A stretch of 64,000 bases of DNA from Cyanidium caldarium (taxonomy: Eukaryota > Rhodophyta > Bangiophyceae > Cyanidiales > Cyanidiaceae), in NCBI GenBank assembly GCA_026184775.1, contig JANCYW010000008.1, forward strand, positions 124,001-188,000, in the 5' to 3' direction. Positions 5,222 through 24,628 of this stretch are shown here, in pieces (the first letter of the stretch is position 1; the number at the start of each line of letters is the position of its first letter). The position numbers were made by a program, and so were the translations under genes. A model generated the notes under the pieces. That model saw only the letters and a list, made by a program, of their open reading frames with translations. It was not told the origin of the DNA and searched no databases.

Positions 5222-6613
5222 TTGGCGCCTGCGTCGTCGTTCTCCACCGCGGTGTCGCGCGCGCGCCCCGCGTTGCCCGTCGGAGCGCTGCGATTCGCAT
5301 TCGGCGTCCGGCGGCGTTCGACCTCCGATTGCGCAGCGGGCTGCTCGGCAGCAAACACTGCAAGGCACCCCGACCACAGCGTGTCTGTCGAACCAAATTT
5401 TCGCTGGATGTTCGTGCTGGCGCCAGTCCGTCTGCGGGTGGCGGCGTGCTCGGGTGACGACGCGTCCGGACTCGTCGACGAGGAGCGCAGGCGCCGCTGC
5501 CGCAACTACTGGAGGAAGTTTGAAAACTTCTCGGCAGAGCTGCGTCGCTTTCAGCTGGCGGCGGGCATTCCGCTATCGCAGCTTCCGAGCGACGGGCAGT
5601 TGCGTAAGCATGCCAGCAACGGGGGACAGGCGCTGTGCTGGGCGTTCAAGGTGCACGGCGGTTGGAAGGCGGTGTCCTTGAGGCTGGCCAGCGAAGACGG
5701 CCGCGACGCGTTGCTGCAATCGCGGCCGCGCGGCCGCGCAGTGCGCGAGCGACAATCTGCGCGGGCGGCCGAGTTACTGCGGCCGCAGATTGATGAAATA
5801 GCCCGCAAAACAGGCCTTCCGCCCAACACCGTGCCCTGCAAAGAGGTGCTGCGGGCGCACAACCCGCTGCTGGCCAACAAGATGTACGCCGTGCCGGGCG
5901 GCTTGCGAGCTGTCGCAAAGGCACTCGGGTACGTGATGGAGGCAGATCTCCAATCGCACGAGCAGACCGATCACGAGGTGCATCAGCCGGAGGATCTGGA
6001 TAAGGTGAAGCGAGAGCTGGAGGAATTCATACAGGCGCACCCCGAGCTGCAGGGCGTCGTGCCCCACCAGCAGATGCTCGCCCAAGAGGGACGCGACGAT
6101 CTAGTGGTGATCATGCGACGATATCTGGGGCCGGACAAATTGGCCCGCCGACTCGGGCTGCGAGCGCCGTCCGATTGGCAGTACTTTCTGGAGATTCGAG
6201 CGCTGGTACGGAGTCTGCACGAGTACATGCGAGCGCACCATCTGACCACGCAGATGCCCACCTTGTCGCAACTGGAGCACGATGGCTGTGGCGCGCTGGC
6301 CACGGCCATCCGCAAACACGGCGGCAGCACGGCGTTCGCGGCGCGGTTCGGCCTGCGGCTGAAGATGGTCGGTCGTCGCCAAAAGAACTTGCTCGACTGG
6401 GGGCCGTTCTCGCTGGAGTATGCATGCGAGATATACGACGCCTGCGACGCGTGGAATCGAGCCGAGGATGGCGCCGTGCAGATGCCTCCATTGGATACGT
6501 TAAGTGTGGAGCTGCAGAGACAGACGGCACTTTATGGAGGTGCGGAATGTGTGGCACGACGACTCGGTCTCGCGCTCCCGTCCGAAACGGATACCCCACC
6601 TAAATCGGCCTGA
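5222..6613 (+). CDS. Five-repeat protein resembling HCF145 TMR repeats; candidate organellar RNA factor
   Basis: No enzyme domain is visible. The 463-residue frame has five degenerate units of about 50 residues. Each has a helical lead-in, a short Pro-containing turn before a 'xxL' helix, then a hydrophobic segment, a 'GG' (or GP) and 'xxVAxxLGL'. Clear endings are KVHGGWKAVSLRLA, AVPGGLRAVAKALGY, YLGPDKLARRLGL, KHGGSTAFAARFGL and LYGGAECVARRLGL. From memory, this matches the TMR units of the plant plastid RNA-stability factor HCF145. RNA binding in the plastid is therefore an inference. The first ~60 residues (MAPASSFSTAVSRARPAL...) are Ser/Ala/Arg-rich like a transit peptide. An ATG at 5408 would give 401 residues and remove most of that. 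It is convergent with MRS2, with a palindromic element between them. Confidence 0.55.
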   Translation: MAPASSFSTAVSRARPALPVGALRFAFGVRRRSTSDCAAGCSAANTARHPDHSVSVEPNFRWMFVLAPVRLRVAACSGDDASGLVDEERRRRCRNYWRKFENFSAELRRFQLAAGIPLSQLPSDGQLRKHASNGGQALCWAFKVHGGWKAVSLRLASEDGRDALLQSRPRGRAVRERQSARAAELLRPQIDEIARKTGLPPNTVPCKEVLRAHNPLLANKMYAVPGGLRAVAKALGYVMEADLQSHEQTDHEVHQPEDLDKVKRELEEFIQAHPELQGVVPHQQMLAQEGRDDLVVIMRRYLGPDKLARRLGLRAPSDWQYFLEIRALVRSLHEYMRAHHLTTQMPTLSQLEHDGCGALATAIRKHGGSTAFAARFGLRLKMVGRRQKNLLDWGPFSLEYACEIYDACDAWNRAEDGAVQMPPLDTLSVELQRQTALYGGAECVARRLGLALPSETDTPPKSA

Positions 6614-6655
6614 ATTGCGTTATACGTTGATACACGTAGCCGAGTCTGTCGCCCG

Positions 6656-6829
6656 CGACTCAGCTGCGTCCTCCCTCGGCCCACACGCTCCTCCGGGCTA
6701 CCCGCAAGGCCGGTTGTGTCGCGAGAGGGCACTCTTTGCGGCCAAGCCTATTGAAACTACTACATGGCAACCAGGTATTCCGGGAACACCGGAGAGGAGT
6801 GTCGGCCGACGGAGGGCATCGCTGGGTCG
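6656..6829. mobile_element. Palindromic element, copy A (Fanzor-end-derived MITE candidate)
   Basis: About 174 bp starting CGACTCAGC and ending GCTGGGTCG, so the ends are inverted repeats of each other with one mismatch in nine. The arms of ~45-55 bp pair imperfectly: TGCGTCCTCCCTCGGCCCAC on the left against the reverse complement of a GTCGGCCGACGGAGGGCATC-like right arm. The centre carries a conserved core that starts AAGCCTATTGAAACTACTAC. The same core and arm occur at 24432-24582 and, in the opposite orientation, at the 3' end of the decayed nuclease gene at 18109. It has no coding capacity. It fills the tail-to-tail gap between the repeat protein and MRS2. No clear target-site duplication is visible. 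Confidence 0.75.
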
Positions 6830-6880
6830 AGAGCTGGCGGCGCGCCTCTTTGGATGAGCCCGGCAAGAGTGGGGCTGCTT

Positions 6881-17942: not shown

Positions 17943-18030
17943 ACCGGAAGGGCACTGTCAGAGGGGAATAGCCTGAAAACCGCCCCTGCGTTGGCCTCGG
18001 ACGCGCAGCGCGTGTAGCGCGACTCGCCAT

Positions 18031-18124
18031 CGACTCAGCTATGCCCTCCGTCAGCCCACACTCTCCTCCAGTCCTCCCAGAGGACCTGGTCGCCAAGTAG
18101 TAGTTTAACTAGGCTTGGCAGCGA
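18031..18124 (-). mobile_element. 3'-terminal segment of Fanzor-type element, shared with palindromic elements (copy B)
   Basis: About 94 bp homologous, in reverse orientation, to the core and right arm of the palindromes at 6656 and 24432. Read on the minus strand it runs AAGCCTAGTTAAACTACTAC, then a CCAGGTCCTCTGGG stretch, then an arm ending in GCTGAGTCG at 18031. Over the 41-base core it differs from the 24.4 kb copy at 3 positions and from the 6.7 kb copy at 7. The stop codon of the adjacent nuclease frame (18111-18109) lies inside the core. Only one arm is present, the other being replaced by coding sequence. This marks the 3' end of the transposon. Confidence 0.75.
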
Positions 18125-18980
18125 TGTTCTCTCGTTCGCGACACGCACTGCCGTTCGGGTTCTGCGGTACCCGATGGTGACAACGTGAAAGTGTCCGACC
18201 TGATCAAACGCTGCCGGGAAGAAGCGGCAGCGCCAATTGCTCGATCCGATCCGCGCGTCGATGGAGTCGATCGGCGCTTGCGGGATGAACGGTTGGATGC
18301 AGAATTCCTCTTCTTCTTCTTCTTCCCATAACTGACACCTTTACGGGGGCGACCCAGGTAGGCCGGACGTGGAAGGTCATGCGGAATGGTGAACGCGGTC
18401 CGCAGCAGATCGAATACGACATTTCTGTTGCGGTTGTGTATCCACTCGCACTCCGTATTCTGACACTGCACCAAACGCCACACTGTGCGCTCCTTGCTCT
18501 GTCTCCCCTTGCGCGTATCGGTGCACTGCATAAATGTCTTCGTCTCGCCGCCACAACAGCGCACCGAACACCTCTTGCTGGTGTGCGCCTCATTGATGAG
18601 GCGCACATCATAACCATGTTTCTCAAACAGCTCCCGCATGCCCTTGCTCTTGGTCGGCGGGCTGCCCTCCCTATCGTCGACATACCCATCTCAAGTTGTA
18701 TTGACCACAGTATGCCATGTCCCACGATAAGCTCCTTTCTCTCATTGGCGTTCCTAGCTTCTCGTCCGTGAGTTTGCCAATTCGTTGTGTTGACTGCTCC
18801 AATTTGCCCAGTCCGTGCTTCGCCAAACATGGTACCCCCGACTCGTCGTTTGCGAGCTCCCGTCGGACACAACGCATATTCCGTCGTCAGCACCACCTGA
18901 CAGTCACGGAATGAGTCCGTCGTGCACGCCTGCCATACCCCGCGCCGAACAGCGAGTCTGTCGTGCGAGCACCGCACTCT
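18109..18980 (-). pseudogene. Decayed Fanzor-type (TnpB-like) nuclease gene, C-terminal part
   Basis: Remnant of an RNA-guided RuvC-like nuclease carried by a DNA transposon. The last 176 codons are open. They contain the TnpB/Fanzor tail: RLINEAHTSKRC opening a zinc ribbon, a second Cys pair in VQCQNTECEWIHNRNRN, and a NVVFDLLRTAF helix in the position of the family's final RuvC strand. The usual acidic residue of that last motif reads Asn here, which suggests loss of activity. A Lys-rich, Ser/Arg-rich tail follows. Upstream, similarity continues only in scattered pieces across frames to about 18.98 kb, so the copy is truncated and interrupted. No N-terminal domain is recognisable. The gene ends inside the repeat core at 18109. 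Confidence 0.68.
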
Positions 18981-19104
18981 GCAACATCAGGAACCGAATT
19001 TCTCTGAACAGCCTTCACAGCAAACCACAGCGGCCTGAGGCGATGCACCCCGTGGCACCTCGACTCCGCGCACCTCGCCCAACGTCTACCTACACGAGAG
19101 TTTC

Positions 19105-20480
19105 GTGGATGCCTTTGACTCCGACGACGACCTATTCGAGGTGACGTTTCGCAGGTTCGTGCTGCAGGGAGGCCTGGACCGGTTGGCCAGACACTCTTAC
19201 GCGGAGGAGCTGCAGTCGCTCCTGGACGCGCGCCACATCGCCTATGATAGCGACGCGGGCTATGAGCGCCTCGTCGACCAATCAACCGACGTCGCCTGTG
19301 GACCGCCCGGCCAGAGTGGGGCGCCTGCCGCGGAAGCGGCGGCGCTCCGGCTGAATCGCCTGCGCAGGCGTCCGCCCAGCATCGAAGCACCGCCACAGCG
19401 GGAGCCGCCACAAGAGGCTGTCGCCGTGCTGGACGGCCTGCTCGATTCGACGGCGATTCTCTCGGCATCGTTCGCACTGACCGACGATGAGGAGCATCTG
19501 AGTTGCGTCGACCGAATACTCGATACGTGTGTGGTGTTGCATTACCCGCAGCCGCCCGAGCCGCAGCCCACGGCGCCCGAAAACCGCAAGCCGTTGCCGG
19601 TGGTCTCGAACCGCGGCCCGGCGGCCAAGTACGCGCCGCAGCTGCGCGAGGCCGTACTGCCCCGGTGACACCGTGTTTTCCTCGAGCAGGGCTCGCAACA
19701 CCACATCAAGCGTCACTCAGAAGAGTGGATCCGCCGCCATTTCACGGTAGGTGCGCGCGATTGAGGAGAGCGCGTGCGCATGTGCCGGCGGTGTTGCCGC
19801 TGCGCGGTTCCCATGTGCCCGGCCACATTATGCTGGACACAACGGGACTGACGCAGCTGGTGGCGCTCCGGTCGACTGTGCCGCTGCGGTCAGCTGCGGG
19901 CGCGGAGCGCGCGGCAAGAATGGTCGTCGGGTTGGCGACTGCATCGCCGGGGCAGATCGCTGCAGGCGCTGGGCGAGCACTACGTCCACGAGGTGTTTCG
20001 CAAGATGCGGCACGCATTCCAGTGCAACGCGGCGCGTTCGTGTGTGACCGCCTCCTGAACCGTTTCCAAGAGTGCTGTTCGGCAAGCCGGGCGACGTGCT
20101 GGTGCTTTTTGGCGACTGGGTATGAGCGCGTATCTCATGCGCAGCAGCCCGCCACTGAAAGTCAAGCAGTGGCGCGACCTGTTCGTGCGCCGCGTCCACC
20201 ACGTGTACCTCATCGACGCAGCGTGCACCAGCAGGATACGCGCGGTGTGCTACCGCAGCGAGACCATGCACTGCAAGATGCACAAGGAGCCGCATTCTGG
20301 CTAGGAGCGTTGAATATGGCGTTGGGTGCAGTGTCAGAATCCGGGTCGTAGCCGCATATTGCGCCGCGAAAAGAACGCCATATTCAACTTGATGCGCGCC
20401 GCCCAAGCCATTCTGAATGACGAGGAGCATCCGATATACTTGCGTCGCCGTAATCTATCGGCGAGCGCGTCGAGTGTGCA
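19105..20480 (+). pseudogene. Second decayed Fanzor-type nuclease copy, divergent from the first
   Basis: A longer relic on the opposite strand. An open segment of 187 codons starts at 19105 (MDAFDSDDDLFEVTFRRF). It may be the N-terminal region or an unrelated small gene. Downstream, family-like segments appear in more than one frame: a GHIMLDTTGLTQL piece, a GKPGDVLVLFGDW piece at ~20080, VYLIDAACTSRI at ~20210 matching the zinc-ribbon opening of the other copy, and NAIFNLMRAAQAIL at ~20380. The ending HPIYLRRRN resembles RPAYLGRPR of the copy at 18.1 kb, so they are one family. Several interruptions show it is dead. The 3' core found at 18031 is not seen after this copy. Confidence 0.6.
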
Positions 20481-20879
20481 ATCCGTGCCATTCGATGCAT
20501 TCGACCCGATCCGGCGCCATTGCCCGCGCGATCGACGATTTCGATTTCGGACGAGAGACGGCGGGAGATGGCGACGGCGAGCTGCATTGGTTTTTCCGGT
20601 GGTAAGTACCACAAAACGCGCTCGCGGACAGATCACACTTTGGGTGGACGCTCGAGCATATTTGGACACGCAGACACTTACGGAAACTGCGATTCGCGTT
20701 CCTTTCTGCGTCGCCTTTGTTCTGTTGTACCCAAAAAAAAACGTGCAGGGGTCTGGGTCGGCCCGAAGGAGCTGGCGGGTTGACGCCGGAGCTGGCTGGA
20801 TAAGAGATCGGAGCCGGGCGGCAGGGAGCGCCAGCGTCTGGGGACCAATTTTAAGACGCTTCGTCCTGCAGTTCTTCTC
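20481..20879. other. Upstream region of the Rho-like GTPase gene
   Basis: About 400 bases after the transposon relic with no convincing gene. It contains a run of nine A at 20740-20749 and is less GC-rich than the flanking genes. It probably holds the GTPase promoter. No second copy of the palindromic core is seen. Confidence 0.4.
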
Positions 20880-24247: not shown

Positions 24248-24431
24248 TGTACAGAGAACGAGGAGTATAGACTGGGTTGCCACGCCTTGCGATCACGGAA
24301 TGCCTACCAGTCCTCCATGCGTCGGGTCACTTGTAGGCCACGTCTGCACTTCTCATCGGAGGCTCGGCGCTTGCTCTGCTGCTCCGTCACCCTGGATAAA
24401 TCCGAGCTCACCGAGCGGCGCCCCTTGCTTC

Positions 24432-24582
24432 CGACCCAGCTGCGTCCTCCATCAACCCACTCTCTTTTGCGGGCCGCTCAGAGGACTCTTCGCGGTCAAG
24501 CCTAGTTAGACTACCACTTGGCAACCAGGTCCTCTGGGTGGCTCGCAGAAGAGTGTGAGCTGACGGAGGGCGCAGCTCGGCC
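24432..24582. mobile_element. Palindromic element, copy C (Fanzor-end-derived MITE candidate)
   Basis: About 151 bp. The left arm begins CGACCCAGCTGCGTCCTCC and the right arm ends as its inverted partner (GGAGGGCGCAGCTCGG). Pairing extends inward over ~50 bp to a CAGAGGAC/GTCCTCTG pair. The unpaired middle holds the core AAGCCTAGTTAGACTACCAC, followed by TTGGCAACCAGGTCCTCTGG. It is oriented like the copy at 6656. The core is nearly identical to the nuclease 3' end at 18.1 kb (3 differences in 41). It lies in the tail-to-tail gap between the ABC1 kinase and ProRS genes, ending 46 bp before the ProRS stop. No coding capacity. Confidence 0.78.
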
Positions 24583-24628
24583 GATGACCAGTGATTCATG
24601 CGGGGTGCTGATTTGCCACCACTCGCCA

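Follow-up and report, generated by a model that had tools for sequence, protein, structure and literature searches.

Fanzor relic, right-end module and palindromes in the window

The present study concerns a 64-kb stretch of the Cyanidium caldarium genome (the window; C8:124001-188000, within the 8.79-Mb, 20-contig genome that was searched), in which a nuclease relic and two palindromes have a sequence module in common. The relic is a minus-strand ORF at 18109-18639 (stop codon at 18111-18109), a 5'-truncated, Fanzor1-type C-terminal piece of 176 aa identified from the ORF itself, a PF07282 match and comparison with a copy on contig C3. The PF07282 match (2.3e-5, 24.9 bits) falls slightly below the cut-off of 26.3, and 98 aa align with the C3 copy at 70% identity. 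The last RuvC motif has changed from RD to RN (HNRNRN in the relic vs HNRDTN in the C3 copy), so that its aspartate is absent; of the complete Fanzor1 motif, only the C-terminal part is present, with RN for RD. An earlier note on this DNA had described a Fanzor-type nuclease gene: the affiliation holds, but the gene is a truncated and dead relic with its RuvC aspartate gone. Head to head with it, at 18856-20801 on the plus strand, lies a relic of a second Fanzor family (Fz2).

The 3' module (18031-18150, minus strand), which we interpret as the right end of a Fanzor element, overlaps the last codons and the stop of the gene, and in gene sense consists of last codons, stop, and then hairpins A and B. 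Hairpin A (18093-18117, minus strand) was recognized from sequence and alignment and reaches across the stop codon, and hairpin B (18032-18091, minus strand), recognized from folds and pair counts, follows immediately 3' of it. Further out is a decayed and weak outer extension, the hairpin C region, at 17982-18030 on the minus strand (nhmmer 17982-18068, 33.5 bits, E 4.5e-9). In the copy at C2:34.9 kb hairpin A has a perfect 7-bp stem. Across all 16 aligned rows, 4-6 of 6 pairs are present in A and 12-17 of 17 in B, and 81.8% of cells are paired, compared with 29.0-46.1% for slid partners. Double changes occur in 4 of 7 pairs of helix A, chiefly from the C3/C13 and C2:34.9 kb copies. Covariation over the 16 rows was not above that of shuffled columns (a score as high in 82/500, paired cells in 111/500), and the module had no match in Rfam from four sources. 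Fanzor guide RNAs are encoded just at or after the stop codon (PMC10432273), the same position as that of the hairpins here; the fold is plausible, though covariation does not prove it.

Both palindromes are short, non-coding inverted repeats on the plus strand. The first, of 174 bp, lies at 6656-6829, with a right-end arm at 6710-6829 and an inverted arm at about 6656-6704; the second, of 152 bp, lies at 24432-24583, with a right-end arm at about 24480-24583 and an inverted arm that begins at 24432. Beyond the inverted arm of the latter is an outer extension with hairpin C that is common to other copies (24375-24431, minus strand). A 41-base core at 18077-18117 differs at 3 positions from the 24.4 kb copy and at 7 from the 6.7 kb copy. 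A profile was built from eight gene-linked copies, 18.1 kb included and three of the eight from inverted-ended elements, and gave five matches in the window at E<=1: 18031-18151, by construction; the right-end arms 24578-24480 (E 1.2e-26) and 6829-6709 (E 5.4e-24); and the inverted arms 6656-6716 (E 2.5e-9) and 24432-24511 (E 1.2e-8). From 20 block-shuffled windows the same profile gave no match at E<=1. Direct comparison thus bears out what the earlier note had claimed of the core, namely these mismatch counts, the stop codon 18109-18111 lying inside it, and its recurrence at 6.7 and 24.4 kb as palindromes, of which both arms match the nuclease 3' end. The palindromes are without a Fanzor ORF and have ends homologous to the Fanzor element, yet both ends match its right end only. 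A calculation of the chance of three modules in one 64-kb window (P ~3e-4) was post hoc and is not counted as evidence, because the finding was picked for that very repetition.

The earlier note had also taken sequences like CGACYCAGC for the ends. In many copies homology goes beyond them, continuing past CGACYCAG into hairpin C some 75 bp farther out. A different pair, the 6.7 kb palindrome and the element at C10:47 kb, have a common outer flank that is unlike the flank of other copies. Homology beyond CGACYCAG together with this differing flank leaves the termini unsettled, and no target-site duplication was seen by eye at the flanks of the palindromes. The common flank stands on the inverted-arm side, at 6560-6655 in the window and at 6847-6905 of L038, the C10:47 kb element.

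Fanzor copies across the genome

The full module occurs at 15 loci at least: 6.7, 18.1 and 24.4 kb in the window, C1:227 kb, C2:183 kb, C2:34.9 kb, C3, C6:341 kb, C7:465 kb, C7:497 kb, C10:47 kb, C10:44 kb, C13, C16:214 kb and C16:131 kb. Fanzor coding sequence adjoins 11 of the 15, and is the only coding sequence found adjoining module ends; no transposase came up in these comparisons. The C16:214 kb locus is ambiguous, with DNA similar to the gene tail and no protein match, and three loci (6.7 kb, 24.4 kb and C16:131 kb) are gene-less palindromes. Only outer parts were found at two further loci, C7:215 kb and C8:319 kb. The core is therefore not spread over many loci unlinked to the nuclease, and chance placement of a palindrome beside the 18.1 kb gene does not account for the match there, since the same module stands 3' of other gene copies, including those on C3 and C13. 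The copies are old, about 70-84% alike, and no movement was dated. Among the best 41 of 75 candidates scored, Fanzor protein matches were mostly broken or partial. Several of the Fanzor C-terminal fragments are no more than about 15 kb from the end of a contig (C4:13.8 kb, C13:3.8 kb, C9:7.3 kb, C16:8.7 and 10.4 kb, and others). Four of the five gene-less loci, two of them partial, lie between long convergent ORFs, including 6614-6880 and 24248-24628 in the window; C16 is the exception.

One copy, on C3, has an unbroken ORF, of 1121 residues from stop to stop and with the first Met at 35. The Fanzor motif was applied as D-X(125-275)-[TS][TS]xx-C4 zinc finger-X(5-50)-RD (PMC3627910), and the C3 copy matches it as Fanzor1 with D793, 171 residues, TS, a C4 finger and RD at 1015 (D-X171-TS-x2-C4-RD), provided that T-S is accepted for one position of the [TS][TS] pair. 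PF07282 scores 40 bits on this protein, and the closest solved structures by phmmer are Parasitella parasitica Fanzor1 (3e-11) and Spizellomyces punctatus Fanzor (2.5e-9). A protein search with it scored 7998 candidates, none at E<=0.001, and gave no close relative from C. merolae or elsewhere. Two possible guides, each of 20 bases just outside the C3 right end, were matched to the genome allowing up to 3 mismatches: the first found itself only (1; control 1) and the second itself plus two places with 3 mismatches (control 1), neither a convincing target. The copy on C13 is a relative of the C3 copy and mostly 94-100% identical to it; compared by region, identity is 86-100% along the body and drops to 71-93% near the end.

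A similar difference between body and end was found on C1 and at C2:34.9 kb, where identity between the bodies is 97-100% for almost every 100-base step (lowest 91%) and then falls to about 69% at the ends. The copy on C14 has the same body, stopping at the same point, and is without the right end. These copies on C1 (L040/L064), C2 (L055/L063) and C14 (L065/L066) are broken and near-identical in their bodies, with 3' ends that are different or missing and a single breakpoint. Fast evolution of the right end was considered as a cause of the contrast between C1 and C2 and was rejected on the body and stop point of C14. As C14 has the body without the right end, a simpler account is ectopic conversion from a template that had no end. 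From these alignments the bodies of old Fanzor copies are read as having been ectopically converted while each copy kept its own end. A conserved body with a diverged end would indicate that ectopic copying homogenizes Fanzor bodies, a point to be considered when such elements are dated.

The Fz2 relic at 18856-20801 has a close copy at C2:566.0-568.17 kb, 92% identical over 1183 positions with gaps and 99.3% over 840. Both copies end sharply at ...GGAGCTGGCTGGAT, beyond which their sequences differ, and no target duplication was seen by eye. The sharp end resembles the ...GGACGCAGCTGGGTCG of the first family, with weak profile scores (2-3 bits). On C12 and C14, too, inverted Fz2 relics lie 5' of first-family copies.

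Origin of the palindromes

No inverted arm or outer module was detected at E<=1 on the 5' side of any of four long copies (C2:34.9 kb, C1, C3 and C13), and C14 has the module on neither side at E<=10. As the 5' inverted arm is missing from all four long copies, the palindromes join two right ends and are not plain internal deletions of the present long copies; with C14 also lacking the module, inverted right ends can be called only candidate transposon termini. Fragments of the gene lie between inverted right ends at C2:183 kb (427 bp), C7:465 kb (625 bp) and C10:47 kb (788 bp). The palindromes at 6.7 kb and C16:131 kb have the same junction between inverted arm and right end, after ...CGGGCTRCCC, and that at 24.4 kb fits it with a further deletion, all as judged by eye. 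A common junction favors one founder that spread. An unrelated junction in each palindrome was rejected, as direct alignment puts those of 6.7 kb and C16:131 kb at one place, with 24.4 kb compatible.

We consider it reasonably probable, taking both parts together, that at 18.1 kb the right end of a transposable element with a Fanzor1 gene survives in decayed form and that the palindromes are old, non-autonomous, ghost-like or MITE-like derivatives of that element. The right end of such an element would run from the C-terminal codons and the stop into a conserved non-coding hairpin end, its hairpins being a putative guide-RNA scaffold, and a palindrome would be a whole right end plus the inverted outer part, of about 49 bp, of a second right end. 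Palindromes would then spread as units, with the end-recognition machinery of the element presumably acting in trans. The earlier note had read the palindromes as MITE-like derivatives mobilized by a Fanzor-bearing element. That the core belongs to a Fanzor element is upheld by the 11 of 15 loci, and MITE-like derivation from it is likely; the ends given there do not limit the homology in many copies, target duplications were not seen, and a Fanzor-bearing element is a putative agent of mobilization.

An alternative explanation is that each palindrome is a scar, i.e. a Fanzor copy that collapsed in place when its right end was duplicated by fold-back and the remainder deleted, with no movement of a unit. 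Arms resemble each other more within a locus than between loci (matched or exceeded in 8 of 720 permutations), mainly through C2, C16 and 24.4 kb and most strongly at C2:183 kb (0.92), which also fits a separate inverted duplication at each locus or homogenization of arms. Collapse in place also agrees with the size series with gene fragments (427, 625 and 788 bp), with junctions at short shared words such as CCCG (by eye), and with the many broken Fanzor fragments in the genome among the best 41 of 75 candidates scored. However, one junction in the 6.7 kb and C16:131 kb palindromes, with 24.4 kb compatible, comes about more easily from a single founder, and half of the six inverted-ended elements have an inverted arm that resembles other loci more than its partner arm (ranks 6, 5 and 14 of 19). 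We regard such scars as an unlikely, though serious, account of the palindromes.

A doubtful but comparably serious alternative is that an inverted right end serving as the left end is ancestral, the family being one of true terminal-inverted-repeat elements whose long copies lost that end or had it overwritten. Full-length inverted right ends do occur at C10:47 kb and C7:465 kb, the bodies of long copies have been overwritten by conversion, and C12 has a weak arm-like match (6.4 bits) where the Fz2 relic, placed in inverted orientation ahead of a Fanzor 5' part, has its outer end. On the other hand, the four long module-bearing copies all lack a 5'-side arm at E<=1 and the 5' side of C14 lacks one even at E<=10.

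Quite improbably in our estimation, the palindromes may be stand-alone guide-RNA loci, whose retained scaffold hairpins would read out into the flanks on both sides and might supply the C3 Fanzor1, the one unbroken copy, with guides in trans. The resulting breaks might, with similarly small probability, favor ectopic copying of Fanzor bodies between relics while each locus kept its own end, as is seen in C1/C2/C14 and C3/C13.

Least probable is an origin as host elements (e.g. bidirectional 3' processing or termination signals of convergent genes), one of them captured as a Fanzor end: the 6.7 kb palindrome does have convergent ORFs on its two sides (one unnamed, of 463 aa, the other MRS2-like), as do the palindrome at 24.4 kb (ABC1-kinase and prolyl-tRNA synthetase) and, judged from ORFs only, the partial copies at C7:215 kb (L053) and C8:319 kb (L057), but the palindrome at C16:131 kb does not, Fanzor coding sequence adjoins 11 of 15 module loci, the module includes Fanzor C-terminal codons, and a distant second Fanzor family has a similar end (...GGGTTGACGCCGGAGCTGGCTGGAT). 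A host-gene origin was rejected.

Known gene-less Fanzor and tnpB relatives

The preferred reading, of old non-autonomous derivatives of a Fanzor1 element, has several parallels. In Spizellomyces punctatus, the Fanzor1 element Spu-1 has 'ghosts', i.e. gene-less loci (n=134) with working guide RNAs, and the 3' inverted repeat directly after the stop codon is where its guide RNA is transcribed (PMC10432273). Like these, the Cyanidium palindromes are gene-less, dispersed, and have ends in common with a Fanzor1 element. In ghosts, though, 30-nt inverted repeats enclose about 550 nt, a left end is present as well as a right one, and the guide RNAs have been tested (PMC10432273), whereas the Cyanidium forms are right-end/right-end palindromes of 151-178 bp, few, old, and known from sequence alone. 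Distinct left and right repeats of the ghost type were not found, none of the four long copies having a 5' inverted arm. In Cyanidioschyzon merolae, TE-N2_CMe shares the 5' 635 bp of CMe-1A (PMC3627910). This too is an old cyanidiophyte Fanzor1 family with a related short element, described as having no TIRs, no determined target duplication and no assigned class (PMC3627910). TE-N2_CMe keeps the 5' part, in contrast to the Cyanidium short forms, which keep the 3' end; C. merolae is compared here by description only. The PATEs of Haloquadratum walsbyi are end-only palindromic relatives of tnpB elements, in which core deletions leave end-only forms (PMC3119063). They resemble the Cyanidium forms as short gene-less relatives with near-terminal palindromes; they have no target duplications, and none was seen by eye in Cyanidium. 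PATEs are described as lacking terminal inverted repeats (PMC3119063), while the Cyanidium short element is wholly an inverted repeat of one end.

Since ghosts, PATEs and TE-N2_CMe have been described in these sources, gene-less derivatives with element ends are already known for Fanzor and tnpB. Fanzor palindromes of two right ends were not reported in the literature searched, which does not prove their absence elsewhere, and they are likely a structural variant of the known gene-less kind. If so, a red alga with a compact genome would join the hosts of Fanzor ghosts, with a form that has one end only, and the two ends, as well as the guide-RNA region overlapping the right one, would have roles that can be separated and tested in a small genome.
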